From positions 1-46,340 of the forward strand of contig JAPOUL010000002.1 in assembly GCA_026708685.1 (NCBI GenBank): 46,340 bases of DNA, given 5' to 3'. Positions 4,827-46,271 of this stretch are shown here, one piece after another. The DNA is from Bacteroidota bacterium. GTDB lineage: Bacteria > Bacteroidota > Rhodothermia > Rhodothermales > Bin80. Below the pieces are notes generated by a model, which was given only the letters and a program-made list of their open reading frames with translations, did no database searches and was not told the DNA's origin. Within the stretch, counting starts at the first letter, position 1; the number at the start of each line of letters is the position of its first letter. The position numbers and the translations under genes are program-made.

Positions 4827-6320
4827 ATGACACTTCAAGAATTTCATTCCATAGTTGAAGCACAACGTTCAGAAAATGGCGGGGGCTTTATTGTCCCCGT
4901 CCATCGCCGTTTAAGTGCTGATCTTTTAACTCCCGTCAGTGCATTTTTAGCACTCAGACAACACAGTCAAGGTGCATTCCTTCTGGAAAGTGTTGAGGGA
5001 GGTGAAAATATAGCACGTTATACGTTTCTGGGTTGTAATCCGTACCGTATTGTACGAGCGAATGGGCATGATGTCACCATTGAGGATACTCGGTCTGGGA
5101 AAATGTCCACAGATTCCGAATCTGATTTATTTGAAGTGCTTCAACGCTTCATGAATGAGTTTGTGGAGGTGGAACTTCCTGAACTGCCTCGCTTGCGTTG
5201 TGGAGCCGTTGGCTATGCAGGATACGATTGTGTCCGCTTGATTGAACACCTGCCGCATCCACCACCAGACGATCTCCACCTACCCGATGCAATCTGGGGA
5301 TTCTACGATACCCTAGCAGCCTTTGATCGAGTAAAACATCAAATTGTACTCATTGCTAACGCTTTCGTAACATCTGAATCTAACCTTGACCATGTATTCC
5401 ATCAGGCAGTTGAACGCCTTCATGATTTGGAACGCGATCTGCGTTCTCCATTTGAAAACCCCGAATCCGTACGCTTGGACTCCGAACATCTGACTTCAAA
5501 TGTGGAGCGAGAAGATTTTGAATCTATCGTCAAGGAGGCAAAAAAACTCATCTATGAGGGTGATATTTTTCAGGTCGTGCTTTCTCAACGATTCTCCCTT
5601 TCCTTTAAGGGAGACTCCTTCAATCTATATCGTGCCTTACGACAGATCAACCCCTCACCCTATCTATTCTACCTTGAACTGGACGAAGTGACTTTGATCG
5701 GCAGCTCCCCCGAAGTACTCGTGCATGTAGAAGGTCAGCGGGCGGAACTGCTTCCCATTGCGGGTACCCGACCACGAGGAAAAACCCTTAAAGAAGATGA
5801 GTCTCTGGCCGAAGATCTTCTTTCCGACTCTAAAGAACGTGCAGAGCATCTGATGCTCGTTGACCTTGGGCGCAATGATCTTGGACGCATCAGCAAATTA
5901 GGGAGTGTCTTGGTTGACCGCTATGCCTACATAGAACGGTATTCCCATGTGATGCATATTGTGAGTGCTGTTTCTGGAGAACTGCGAGAGGGCATCAATG
6001 CCATTGATGTCCTTCGAGCGTGTTTCCCGGCTGGAACGGTGAGCGGTGCCCCAAAAGTAAGGGCCATGGAAATCATTGACGAGCTAGAATCCACCCGCCG
6101 CGGTGTCTACGCGGGTGCAGTGGGATATATTGGGTTTTCGGGTAATATGGATATGTGTATCGCCATCCGTACGATGGTCGTGCAAAAAGATCAAATTTAT
6201 ATTCAGGCGGGTGCTGGCATCGTCGCAGATAGCGTTCCTGCCCTTGAATTTGAAGAAACAAAAAATAAAGCAAAAGCACTTCAACAGGCGTTACTCGCCG
6301 CTGCCGATGGTATCCTGTAA
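4827..6320 (+). CDS. trpE: Anthranilate synthase component I
   Basis: This is a 497-residue chorismate-utilising enzyme. With the TrpG glutaminase subunit it turns chorismate and glutamine into anthranilate, the first committed step to tryptophan. The N-terminal part holds the feedback-inhibition element LLES within GAFLLESVEGG. The C-terminal chorismate-binding domain shows DIFQVVLSQRF, SPSPYLFYLE-like NPSPYLFYLELDE, PIAGTRPRGKT, DLGRNDLGRIS, HVMHIVSAVSGEL and FPAGTVSGAPKVRAMEII, all diagnostic. ATG at 4827 gives the usual TrpE N-terminus, with SADLLTPVSAFLALR placed as in relatives. It opens the operon that continues with two unknown genes, trpS, trpG, trpD and trpC. A palindromic site lies just upstream. 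I saw no leader peptide or attenuator. A PabB or pyochelin-type role is unlikely given the neighbours. Confidence 0.97.
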   Translation: MTLQEFHSIVEAQRSENGGGFIVPVHRRLSADLLTPVSAFLALRQHSQGAFLLESVEGGENIARYTFLGCNPYRIVRANGHDVTIEDTRSGKMSTDSESDLFEVLQRFMNEFVEVELPELPRLRCGAVGYAGYDCVRLIEHLPHPPPDDLHLPDAIWGFYDTLAAFDRVKHQIVLIANAFVTSESNLDHVFHQAVERLHDLERDLRSPFENPESVRLDSEHLTSNVEREDFESIVKEAKKLIYEGDIFQVVLSQRFSLSFKGDSFNLYRALRQINPSPYLFYLELDEVTLIGSSPEVLVHVEGQRAELLPIAGTRPRGKTLKEDESLAEDLLSDSKERAEHLMLVDLGRNDLGRISKLGSVLVDRYAYIERYSHVMHIVSAVSGELREGINAIDVLRACFPAGTVSGAPKVRAMEIIDELESTRRGVYAGAVGYIGFSGNMDMCIAIRTMVVQKDQIYIQAGAGIVADSVPALEFEETKNKAKALQQALLAAADGIL

Positions 6321-21004: not shown

Positions 21005-22393
21005 ATGAAGATAACCGTTCAAAATTTAGGGATTTTGAAGGAGGCCATGTTTGAGTTGGGTCATCTAACTGTGATTTGTGGGCTCAACAATACTGGTAAA
21101 ACATATGCTACTTATGCTCTTTACGGTTTTTTGGAAAACTGGCGAGGCTTTCTAAAAGCAGATGTTTCTGGTAAAGAAATTGATGAGATTATTGATAACG
21201 GCGTAGGACGAATAGATATTGCCCAACATGTTCAAAAGGCAAAAAATATCCTTGCCAAAGGTTGCCAGAGATATACTAAGGAACTACCCAGAATTTTTGC
21301 ATCTGATTCCAAATACTTCTCCCATGCTAAGTTTCATTTGGATTTGGATCAAGATATTGCCTCTATCCTGCATCCCCCTTTTGAGCGAAAATTGCACTCT
21401 AAAAAAAGTGAACTTCTTTCATTTAGTAAGCCTGAAGGGATCGGTACACTTGACATTTCACTTTCTGCTGATCATGGCAATTTTGACTTGCCAAGGAGGA
21501 TGATCAAAGATGCGATCATTGATGTTCTTAACGAAATACTCTTTAAGCGATACTTACCGAGGCCATTTATTGCCAGTGCAGAGCGCACGGGTGTAGCAAT
21601 CTTCAGTAAAGAGCTTGACTTTGCCAGAAACCGATTACTTGAAGAAATGGCTAGAAGTAGCAAGGGTATTGATCCCTTGGAGTTACTCTTTAGGTCTTAT
21701 AATGATTATGCTTGGCCCGTCAGGTCCAATGTAGATTTCACTAGAAGAGTGATAGATATTACTAAACAAGATAGCTTTATTGCTACGAAGTATCCACATA
21801 TTCTGAATCTATTCCGTGACATTGTCGGTGGTGAGTATATTACAGGAAGTAATAATTCGGTCTATTTTAAGCCTTCAAAGAAAAACCTTAAACTAACCAT
21901 AGGAGAGAGTTCTAGTGCTGTAAGATCCATGCTGGATATTGGTTCTTATCTCCGCCATATCGCTCAGCCTGGCGATTTGCTCATGGTGGATGAACCAGAA
22001 CTAAATTTGCATCCCGAAAATCAACGTAAAGTAGCACGACTTTTTGCTCGCCTTATAAAACTTGGAATTCGTGTATTCATCACGACCCATAGTGATTATA
22101 TCATTAAGGAACTCAATACACTGATCATGCTCAATCAAGATAAACCACATCTCAAGCAAATTTCCAGCAGAGAAGGCTTTGAAAATGAAGAGTTAGTTGA
22201 CGCAGAGAAGGTAAAGGTATATATCGCCGAAAAATCTTTACTCAAAACGAAGAGCACTAGCAAAAAGAGAACTATGCATCCATCACTCGTGGAGGTGGAA
22301 GTGAGTGATGACTATGGAATTGATGCTCGTAGCTTTGATGTTGTAATCAATAAAATGAATGAGATTCAAGAGGCCATTGTGTGGGGAGATTGA
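21005..22393 (+). CDS. OLD/AAA-type ATPase, probable first component of a two-gene defence system
   Basis: This 462-residue ABC/AAA-like ATPase of the RecF/OLD style has Walker A GLNNTGKT at 26-33, a signature-like ESSSAVRS, Walker B LLMVDEPELNLHP with D329-E330, and the histidine loop TTHSD with H362. The middle 270 residues, between Walker A and Walker B, are a helical insertion. There is no TOPRIM domain at the C-terminus, unlike OLD or GajA, so nuclease activity would have to come from the partner. The next gene starts 2 bases after its stop. Proteins of this type act as sensors or motors in systems such as Septu, Gabija, PARIS and AbiL, but the partner here matches none of those effectors. 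The region is more AT-rich than its surroundings. The defence role is inferred from architecture. Confidence 0.85.
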   Translation: MKITVQNLGILKEAMFELGHLTVICGLNNTGKTYATYALYGFLENWRGFLKADVSGKEIDEIIDNGVGRIDIAQHVQKAKNILAKGCQRYTKELPRIFASDSKYFSHAKFHLDLDQDIASILHPPFERKLHSKKSELLSFSKPEGIGTLDISLSADHGNFDLPRRMIKDAIIDVLNEILFKRYLPRPFIASAERTGVAIFSKELDFARNRLLEEMARSSKGIDPLELLFRSYNDYAWPVRSNVDFTRRVIDITKQDSFIATKYPHILNLFRDIVGGEYITGSNNSVYFKPSKKNLKLTIGESSSAVRSMLDIGSYLRHIAQPGDLLMVDEPELNLHPENQRKVARLFARLIKLGIRVFITTHSDYIIKELNTLIMLNQDKPHLKQISSREGFENEELVDAEKVKVYIAEKSLLKTKSTSKKRTMHPSLVEVEVSDDYGIDARSFDVVINKMNEIQEAIVWGD

Positions 22394-22395
22394 TC

Positions 22396-22977
22396 ATGAG
22401 CTCAGACATTAATATTCTCAAAAGATTGATCATTAAAAATGTTCTGGTGCCTGTAAGTAAAAACAACTACGACAAATACTTTCTCGTACTTAATGATTAT
22501 GGAAGATCATCTAGCTATCACATAAAAATAGTCAACTTACCCGAAGAGACAATTGCAATAAAAACTGATCGGTTTCCATTTACAAAAAAGATATTTAGAT
22601 GCAATAATGGCGAATGTAAAATGGCAGATTATGTTGTAATTTCTAATGACTTAGATCAAAAGTGGATCATCTATATTGAACTCAAACTTGGGAGTAACGG
22701 TAAGCCTAAACAGATTATACAGCAACTGGAAGGATCCAAGTGTTTTATCCATTATTGTCGTGAGGTTGGTAAAACGTTTTTACATGAACCCGAGTTTCTT
22801 GATCCTACGAATTATCAAGAGCGATATATTAGTGTGAAAAATATTGGAGTGGCTAAAAGATCTTCCAATATCCTAACAAAGCCCGGTGTACATGACCATG
22901 CCAGCAACATGCTTCGTATAAGTGCTCCCCCTCCAAAAGGGATTCGATTTGAGCAATTAATAAATATAGACGGTTAG
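22396..22977 (+). CDS. PD-(D/E)XK nuclease-like partner of the ATPase
   Basis: This 193-residue protein starts at ATG 22396, 2 bases after the ATPase stop; a GTG at 22381 inside the ATPase gene is the alternative. It carries what looks like a PD-(D/E)XK nuclease core: D78 in CKMADYVVIS, then E95-L-K97 in WIIYIELKLG, followed by a helix with glutamines (KQIIQQLEG). The spacing of 17 residues between D and ExK fits the fold, and the ADYVV...IYIELK pattern is common in small proteins next to AAA ATPases. It is probably a metal-dependent nuclease, or a degenerate one used for binding, and acts with the ATPase. No DNA-recognition domain is seen. The C-terminal 60 residues are basic and may bind nucleic acid. 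Confidence 0.65.
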   Translation: MSSDINILKRLIIKNVLVPVSKNNYDKYFLVLNDYGRSSSYHIKIVNLPEETIAIKTDRFPFTKKIFRCNNGECKMADYVVISNDLDQKWIIYIELKLGSNGKPKQIIQQLEGSKCFIHYCREVGKTFLHEPEFLDPTNYQERYISVKNIGVAKRSSNILTKPGVHDHASNMLRISAPPPKGIRFEQLINIDG

Positions 22978-23183
22978 TATATCCAAAGAGTTTCGCCTTC
23001 TAAGAGTACTTGGATATCAAAACCCAATTTCTTGATCTGAATAATAAGCCTGATTAGATTCAAAACATGTAGACCCCAAATCCTTCCGAAGTGAGGCAGA
23101 TTGATGAAAAACTGATCCTTACCCAGCAACAGATATTGAATTCCTATGACACGCCCACATAATTTAATCGGTGCGGTGTCATA
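22974..23183 (-). other. 69-codon open frame without a start, possible gene remnant
   Basis: On the minus strand, right after the methyltransferase stop and in another frame, a stop-free run reads APIKLCGRVIGIQYLLLGKD, then QFFINLPHFGRIWGLHVLN and ends LLEGETLWIY. It contains no ATG or GTG, so it is not a complete gene. The amino-acid make-up looks protein-like. It may be a lost C-terminal extension of the methyltransferase reached by a frameshift, or a fragment of another gene. No family is recognised. Confidence 0.3.
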
Positions 23184-23916
23184 TCATTTTTACCATAGAA
23201 GATTTTAGATGCTTTTGTCCATGACGCTCAAAAAGCCATGCGGTGTAAAGGAGCCCACTCCAATAAGATCGAATGAGATGTAGCCCTGAATCCTGACAAA
23301 TCTGCAGAATTCTATCTGAACTTGCATAAGCAATTCCACGATCCAATCGACTCAGAAGCCGCTCTTTCTTCTTGCCTGTATACCCCCTATGATCCATAAA
23401 ACGTTTCCATGCACCATAAAATAAGTTGAAATAGGGATCCGACTGATCCCCATGCAAGTCAAATAATACGACCGTCCCATCGGGCTTTACACGCTCAGTC
23501 ACGCTCTGCATAAGAGCATCTTTGGATCCGTCATCCGGTAGAAAATGCATGACATTGATGATCGTAGCTGCATCAAACTGAATGTCTGGATCAAGCTCAT
23601 GCGTGTAACAATGATGCAATTGAACACGGGAGGAAATCTCCATTTTTCCCGCTACTTTTTTTTTTTTAATGATACGGCGACCACCGAGATCTACACAATC
23701 AAATGTCCATTGATCTTCTGCTGAAGCGAACACTTCAAGTTCCTTACCAGTACCACAGCCTACGATCAGTATCTTGGCCCCTTTGTCTAGCCGTTCCTGT
23801 AAGAGCGATAATGTGGCAATGAAAAGTTCATCATACCCAGGAATCACTCGGCTGGCAAGTTCCTTGTACTCTTCACCATAATCTCCGTCAAAGTTAAATG
23901 CTTTCGGATCTTTCAT
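23179..23916 (-). CDS. Class I SAM-dependent methyltransferase (sequence partly replaced by adapter)
   Basis: This 245-residue protein has the class I methyltransferase core. Motif I is ILIVGCGTGKELEVFA near residue 55, motif II is the acidic strand end FDCVD, then INVMHFLPDDGSKDALMQSV and VKPDGTVVLFDLHGD. It resembles CmoA-like and Methyltransf_25 proteins that use S-adenosylmethionine; the substrate is unknown. Residues corresponding to 23656-23696 (VDLGGRRIIKKKK) are not biological: the DNA there is an Illumina P5 oligo plus a T-run. The frame stays open across it and the length is normal, so the artefact probably replaced a similar length of real sequence, perhaps one like VDxSxEMIxxAxKK. 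Treat these residues as unknown. It is divergent from msrP across 49 bases. Confidence 0.8.
   Translation of the reverse strand: MKDPKAFNFDGDYGEEYKELASRVIPGYDELFIATLSLLQERLDKGAKILIVGCGTGKELEVFASAEDQWTFDCVDLGGRRIIKKKKVAGKMEISSRVQLHHCYTHELDPDIQFDAATIINVMHFLPDDGSKDALMQSVTERVKPDGTVVLFDLHGDQSDPYFNLFYGAWKRFMDHRGYTGKKKERLLSRLDRGIAYASSDRILQICQDSGLHLIRSYWSGLLYTAWLFERHGQKHLKSSMVKMI
23656..23696. other. Illumina P5 flow-cell oligo with poly-T linker (assembly artefact)
   Basis: Twelve Ts (23656-23667) are followed by the exact 29-base Illumina P5 sequence (23668-23696), which begins AATGATACGGCGACC and ends GAGATCTACAC. The flow-cell-bound P5 oligo itself carries a T linker at its 5' end, so both parts match. 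No chance or biological explanation fits a 29-base identity. It lies within the methyltransferase gene. Confidence 0.97.
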
Positions 23917-23965: not shown

Positions 23966-24994
23966 ATGGCAAATGTTATTTTATCACCGAGTTGGGCACT
24001 TAAAGAAAGTGTATGTACCTCCCAATCTGCTTATACGAACCGTCGTAAGTTTGTTAAGTCCCTTGGATTGGGAGCCATTGGGCTTGCTACTCTGGGAGGA
24101 TGTACGGCCAATAGCCAGAATACGATCGGTGGTCCGTTGGATAAGATCCCCGAAAATGCTCCAAGGGATGGCTACCCCGCCGCAAGAAATGAAATCTATC
24201 AGGTTCCTGAGCGCGATTTAACGGAACGCCTGCTCGCGTCTTCCTATAATAATTTTTATGAATTCATTAATCAGGGAAACTTAAAACTGGTATGGCCTCT
24301 GGTGGACGATTACAAACCGTTTCCATGGACCTTGGATGTTCGCGGGCAAGTTGATCAAAAACAAACTTGGGATTTAACTGAGTTGATCAAGTCCATGCCT
24401 CTTGAAGAACGGATCTATCGATTCCGATGTGTTGAGGCATGGTCCATGACGGTTCCTTGGACAGGCTTTCCCCTTGCAAGCCTCATCAAGAAATGCAACC
24501 CTAACTCATCGGCCACTCATGTTCAATTCACATGCGTTTCACGCCCTGATGAATTGCCAGGTCAGAAGAAAGCGACTTGGTACCCTTGGCCTTATTTTGA
24601 AGCCTTGAGAATGGACGAAGCCATGAATGAACTTGCCTTTGTTGCAGTTGGCATGTATGGAGAGCCCCTACCCAAGCAGAATGGCTCCCCTCTACGGTTA
24701 GTCCTCCCCTGGAAATATGGCTATAAAGGACCCAAAGCGATTACACATATAGAATTCACCCGCAAACAGCCAGATACTTTCTGGAATAAGCTGCAACCCC
24801 GCGAATACGGCTTTCTCTCTAATGTGAATCCGAATATTCCACATCCTCGATGGAGTCAGGCATCCGAACGATTGCTACTCAGTGAAGGAGTTGAAAATCG
24901 TATTCGTACCCAATTATTTAATGGATACAACGAGTGGGTCGGTGAATTATATCCCGATGAGCCCAGAACGCCATCGGGTCCAATCATCAGGTAA
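23966..24994 (+). CDS. msrP: Protein-methionine-sulfoxide reductase catalytic subunit (MsrP/YedY)
   Basis: This is a 342-residue molybdopterin enzyme that repairs oxidised methionines in periplasmic proteins. A twin-arginine signal is present (TNRRKFVKSLGLGAIGLATL, near residues 24-43). The mature part shows YNNFYEFINQGN, FPWTLDVRG and the molybdenum-ligating cysteine in YRFRCVEAWSMTVPWTGFPL. FTCVSRPDELPGQ, YPWPYFEALRMDEAMNELAF, NGSPLRLVLPWKYGYKGPKA and PREYGFLSNVNPNIPHPRWSQ complete a near-perfect family match. The usual partner, the haem membrane protein MsrQ, is not beside it; the next gene is convergent and unrelated. It may be orphaned, or use an msrQ elsewhere. A MOSC-domain gene lies 1.2 kb away, but that is no evidence of a link. 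Confidence 0.95.
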   Translation: MANVILSPSWALKESVCTSQSAYTNRRKFVKSLGLGAIGLATLGGCTANSQNTIGGPLDKIPENAPRDGYPAARNEIYQVPERDLTERLLASSYNNFYEFINQGNLKLVWPLVDDYKPFPWTLDVRGQVDQKQTWDLTELIKSMPLEERIYRFRCVEAWSMTVPWTGFPLASLIKKCNPNSSATHVQFTCVSRPDELPGQKKATWYPWPYFEALRMDEAMNELAFVAVGMYGEPLPKQNGSPLRLVLPWKYGYKGPKAITHIEFTRKQPDTFWNKLQPREYGFLSNVNPNIPHPRWSQASERLLLSEGVENRIRTQLFNGYNEWVGELYPDEPRTPSGPIIR

Positions 24995-46195: not shown

Positions 46196-46271
46196 TGGCA
46201 CGGGTGGTAGGACTTGAACCCACAACCTGCGGTTTTGGAGACCGCCGCTCTGCCAGTTGAGCTACACCCGT
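46196..46271 (-). tRNA. tRNA-Trp (CCA anticodon)
   Basis: A 76-base cloverleaf on the minus strand runs from ACGGGTGTAGC to a CACCCGT acceptor arm, a G discriminator and encoded CCA (46196-46198). The anticodon arm GCGGTCTCCAAAACCGC reads CCA in a CTCCAAA loop, and the T arm contains GTTCAAGTC. It lies between tuf and secE, where tRNA-Trp is found in many bacteria. It is the substrate of the TrpS encoded at 7600. Confidence 0.97.

Follow-up and report, generated by a model that had tools for sequence, protein, structure and literature searches.

An Illumina P5 sequence with its T linker inside a bacterial methyltransferase gene, interpreted as in-register replacement of native bases

Introduction

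The Illumina P5 sequence occurs in public assemblies most commonly as untrimmed adapter. A scan of the GTDB species genomes and IMG/VR returned at least 237 placements; among the matches listed, P5 is followed directly by TruSeq sequence in 135 of 237, directly by Nextera sequence in 70 and by an index plus TruSeq in six. These 211 adapter-followed placements lie mostly near contig ends. The other 26 of the 237 listed have no recognised adapter behind P5, and about a dozen of the matches listed are internal copies with genomic sequence directly behind P5, usually after a run of 10 to 13 T and, in several comparable cases, after exactly ten. A corresponding scan for P7 revealed comparable internal copies at four loci (L268, L274, L296 and L314). 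To our knowledge, the T10 linker is carried only by the oligonucleotides grafted to the flow cell and not by library PCR primers.

Internal phage matches in Acinetobacter TAC1, Escherichia HMD-P3 and Paenibacillus Pd_22F were rejected as full-adapter joins, which belong to another class, and the Klebsiella virulence plasmid CP058799, a listed match, was left out of the comparison. The 39-mer formed by T10 and P5 had no match in complete genomes of E. coli, nor did locus L160 match E. coli. No description of a same-length oligonucleotide replacement was found in the open-licence papers of PubMed Central, and an in-register overwrite of this kind may be undescribed so far. Here, we analyse one such site in a Rhodothermales draft genome and compare it with parallels in other genes and viruses.

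Results

The window is the whole of contig C42 (46,340 bp), from a draft genome of 3.83 Mb in 170 contigs that is 99.6% complete. The features at and around the site are as follows.

23668 to 23696, plus strand: exact Illumina P5 29-mer, the only copy in the genome
23656 to 23667, plus strand: run of 12 T, of which 23658 to 23667 are taken as the T10 linker and 23656 to 23657 are probably native or carry-over
23658 to 23687, plus strand: about 30 probably foreign bases; residues 77-87 (LGGRRIIKKKK) are unlike relatives, with no gap
23688 to 23696, plus strand: probable priming seed, the last nine bases of P5 (GATCTACAC), whose reverse complement GTGTAGATC occurs in relatives
23179 to 23916, minus strand: class I SAM-dependent methyltransferase gene of 245 aa that carries the artefact (open reading frame, Pfam Methyltransf_12, 16 relatives)
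23966 to 24994, plus strand: molybdopterin-binding oxidoreductase gene (Pfam PF00174), which anchors the contig join

The original prediction of twelve Ts and an exact P5 29-mer within a methyltransferase coding frame was borne out. The 29-mer, AATGATACGGCGACCACCGAGATCTACAC, has no second copy in the genome even when two mismatches are allowed in its first 21 bases, and 100 shuffles of the window gave no match with up to three mismatches. Immediately 5' of it lies the T run, which is the sole A/T homopolymer of nine or more bases in the window and of which ten bases fit the linker of the surface-grafted form. Neither P7 (up to two mismatches) nor the TruSeq adapter core AGATCGGAAGAGC was detected in the genome, and other 14-base pieces of common Illumina oligonucleotides were absent elsewhere in the window. 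Genomic sequence stands directly behind P5, with no read-1 primer or index, and the site, at 23.7 kb, is about 23 kb from either contig end. A sample of 393 further genomes of the same phylum contained no linker plus P5. The P5 feature is a sequencing artefact and carries no biology.

The gene itself is an ordinary methyltransferase. Its translation contains ILIVGCGTGKE, with the VGCGTG motif, and matches the Pfam Methyltransf_12 profile with an E value of 3.8e-11, compared with 1.9e-14 for a clean relative. The minus-strand frame stays open through the oligonucleotide, where it reads FDCVDLGGRRIIKKKKVAGK, so that, as had been anticipated, an unbroken 245-aa product includes a false segment. 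A codon alignment with 16 relatives, which belong to its genus, family or order and are 43-71% identical, is gap-free around the site for every one of them. Of the 60 residues on either flank, the nine same-genus relatives share 43-47 to the left and 38-41 to the right, but only 0-2 of 10 in the segment GGRRIIKKKK; FDCVDLGGRRIIKKKKVA stands in the window where relatives have FDCVDPSQAMIEYSRQVA and similar sequences. Because the flanks are gap-free and only LGGRRIIKKKK has diverged, the alignments show that native bases were swapped one for one by the 39-nt oligonucleotide T10 plus P5, with nothing inserted. The artefact is therefore not the added piece that had been envisaged, and the domain length looks normal because a replacement keeps it. 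The proposed comparison with relatives was the check that brought this out. Residue-level claims, which had been declared unsafe for the whole gene, are so for the roughly 11 false residues 77-87; only these need be ignored.

The boundaries of the foreign sequence were estimated from the gene strand, on which the artefact reads GTGTAGATCTCGGTGGTCGCCGTATCATT followed by ten As. All 16 relatives encode V/I-D-P at 23688-23696, and several same-genus relatives (L006, L007 and L009) carry GTGTAGATCC at the position of the oligonucleotide, with GTGTAGATC at the same codons. The first nine gene-strand bases are therefore probably native and would be the priming seed, as judged for the Bin80 species from relatives at about 70% protein identity. 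About nine of the 39 oligonucleotide bases would thus be common to the native sequence, which leaves about 30 probably false bases, and the tenth gene-strand base is probably already oligonucleotide. The original prediction had taken 41 bases as foreign and all of GTGTAGATCT as the genomic match to the P5 end; the oligonucleotide and nine of those matching bases hold, the full foreign length and the tenth base probably do not. The two As that follow A10 and precede GTAGCG could be the end of a CAA or AAA (Q/K) codon, as in relatives, and 23656-23657 are probably native. Alternatively, they may be signal carry-over, for which Klebsiella phage Marfa offers a parallel: there, an additional A takes the position that is G in phage EI.

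A link across the site had also been called unsafe. A single homologous protein matches both halves of the methyltransferase in register, and among the 16 loci from relatives, 14 have the oxidoreductase gene (67-88% identity) adjoining the methyltransferase and one more has a weak fragment. The contig join across 23656-23696 is therefore sound, although the residues at the site are not.

Adjoining the methyltransferase on its other side, 21005-22977 (plus strand) holds a two-gene cassette of an AAA_15 ATPase and a small partner. The PADLOC profiles PDC-M47A (E=6e-198) and PD-T4-4_A (E=3e-153) match the ATPase and PDC-M47B (E=3e-55) matches the partner, making the cassette a candidate anti-phage defence pair. 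The methyltransferase loci of the relatives contain no clear match to it, save one weak ATPase fragment. A tRNA gene (46199-46271, minus strand; Rfam) lies at the contig end.

Comparable P5 replacements are present in other genes, for which solved structures (XerD, AspB, RmlA) or a plasmid homologue (TauE) served as comparators. XerD (L123), AspB (L060) and RmlA (L169) show no gap in the oligonucleotide segment against the structures, and block length is kept in 80 of 80 RmlA-type sequences. For UraA (L129), the alignment is interrupted by a gap of two residues immediately ahead of the oligonucleotide and otherwise holds. In a TauE-like gene (L058, 3361-3389), P5 replaces a segment of the same length as in the plasmid homologue, without any T run. 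The overwrite in xerD lies on the reverse strand at 5662-5690; a native motif matching TTxIYTHV could share up to 17 bases with the 3' end of P5, and xerD is likely a hot spot. On contig L119 (3590-3661), a P5 copy stands beside a run of N, and the native seed GAGATCTACAC with its following bases is repeated just upstream on the same contig; this is a scaffold duplication around a mispriming site.

Two of the P7 cases, L268 and L296, have near-identical clean copies for direct comparison, and in them too an oligonucleotide with its linker has taken the place of native sequence of the same length. Viral contig L268 and the near-identical L476 agree at 249 of 250 bases on the left and 250 of 250 on the right (499 of 500 flanking bases), and differ at 17 of 34 positions, all within T10 plus P7 and without a gap; only the last seven P7 bases match the native sequence of L476 uninterrupted. 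L274 and its counterpart L480 share TACGAGAT, eight bases of the P7 end, and length is again kept. L296 is phage Marfa (RefSeq NC_048798, also MN044033; L473 is NC_048798.1, 96270-102070), in whose portal gene exactly 34 bases are replaced compared with the clean phages HMGUkp2 and AmPh_EK29. Of the P7 end, 13 or 12 bases are also present in the native sequence of these phages, and in Marfa native sequence resumes where the As end. The 34 bases of Marfa recur unchanged at the corresponding position of phage EI (MN106245), which differs from Marfa elsewhere. The P7 replacement makes a stop codon, which would explain why the Marfa record annotates a ribosome-binding site and no portal CDS, and why the EI portal gene is annotated in two pieces; the overwrite has thus probably cost a RefSeq phage record its portal annotation. 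The recurrence in Marfa and EI is perhaps not fully independent, since similar CPT-type feature names suggest that a laboratory or run may have been shared.

Discussion

We propose, with a probability of about 85%, that a surface oligonucleotide misprimed within a cluster and that the mixed cluster was then read as a single sequence. The original prediction had likewise named a P5 flow-cell oligonucleotide with its T linker, primed where a few genomic bases match the 3' end of P5, and our data agree with that account. In this model, the surface oligonucleotide 5'-T10-P5-3' would anneal by its 3' end to the genomic match, some 9 nt long and reading GTGTAGATC on the gene strand, while the template is already amplifying in a cluster, and would be extended. 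The cluster would then mix two kinds of strand that are identical up to the priming point: truncated strands that end in the P5 complement and ten As, and full-length strands that carry native sequence. A read from the right-hand end would yield native sequence, then 39 oligonucleotide bases from the commoner truncated strands and then, once these run out and the native signal returns, native sequence again in register, a path that the assembler would accept. The mispriming on the flow cell and the mixed-cluster reading are inferred; together they would account for the precise length and boundary as well as for two phages being hit at one site. Under this model, read 2 alone should contain P5 artefacts and read 1 alone P7 artefacts, as the truncated strands would not carry the other primer site. 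It does not predict L058, where the T run is missing. Elsewhere in the genome, four sites share 11 nt with the 3' end of P5 and yet are clean, while the seed in the window is only 9 nt, so seed length alone is not decisive.

Mispriming could instead have occurred during library preparation, if enrichment PCR extended a P5 primer on the genomic site and the resulting read tails, of P5 complement and linker, were laid ungapped over native reads by overlap-consensus assembly or polishing. Such a consensus would likewise keep register, and L187, in which P5, an i5 index and partial Nextera sequence run into genomic DNA, contains most of the Nextera i5 primer and indicates that library-stage mispriming of the full PCR primer occurs too; L187 itself, however, appears to be out of register. 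Assembly by k-mers depends on reads that span the junction between A10 and native sequence, and separate molecules yield none. Contigs L060 and L058 have SPAdes- and MEGAHIT-style names, and the Marfa assembly was made by SPAdes from 250-base MiSeq reads of a TruSeq Nano library, with 119-fold coverage (PMC6639630). As SPAdes placed native sequence directly after A10, junction reads must exist and, at that coverage, were probably numerous. We therefore consider an origin at the library stage unlikely for the site in the window.

Two further explanations carry far less weight with us than mispriming of either kind. An untrimmed adapter at a fragment end, joined by chance to another contig so that the halves are not truly adjacent, would be in keeping with the 211 of 237 listed placements that have TruSeq or Nextera sequence behind P5; it is very improbable here, where the read-1 adapter is missing, both contig ends are distant, and the reading is refuted by halves that form one gene in register and by the conserved synteny. 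That the segment is real biological sequence, or was engineered into the organism, might be argued from the open reading frame and normal gene length. Against this stand an exact synthetic 29-mer with its linker, its absence from the 393 other genomes of the phylum, replaced residues that follow the conserved Asp of the methyltransferase fold, and identical letters in unrelated genes and viruses, and we regard a biological origin as scarcely credible. Flow-cell mispriming thus remains our preferred reading.

Taken together, the artefact represents a recurring type of error that leaves open, protein-like frames and reaches reference databases. Because gene length and often the frame are kept, it passes as protein, with peptides such as NDTATTEIYT and VDLGGRRIIKKK for P5 and FFFKQKTAYEI for P7. 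Since genome length is unchanged, neither adapter trimming nor length checks would catch it. We lean, by a little, towards a systematic and sequence-directed substitution error, in which any site that matches the terminal 7-17 bases of either oligonucleotide can be overwritten in register, by exactly 39 bases for P5 and 34 for P7 and despite high coverage, with natural hot spots such as the XerD motif codons (TTEIYT). The general lesson is that an oligonucleotide can overwrite sequence at constant length and leave a fixed signature; this signature is exact and searchable, so a screen of public databases could begin immediately.

Compared with known systems, the site in the window shares the P5 letters, the T linker and its place in a public contig with ordinary Illumina adapter read-through. 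Ordinary read-through, however, keeps TruSeq or Nextera sequence and lies near contig ends, whereas the window site is internal, has genomic DNA on both sides and replaces bases one for one. The xerD (L123), rmlA-like (L169), uraA-like (L129) and aspB-like (L060) cases carry the same kinds of peptide letters, NDTATTEIYT or VDLGGRRIIKKK, and differ from the window in host, gene and seed length. Like the portal genes of Marfa and EI, the window site consists of T10 plus a surface oligonucleotide, at the same length as the native sequence and with a native match at its 3' end. Unlike them, it has P5 instead of P7 and a seed of about 9 instead of 12-13 nt, and its methyltransferase frame stays open where theirs meets a stop codon.
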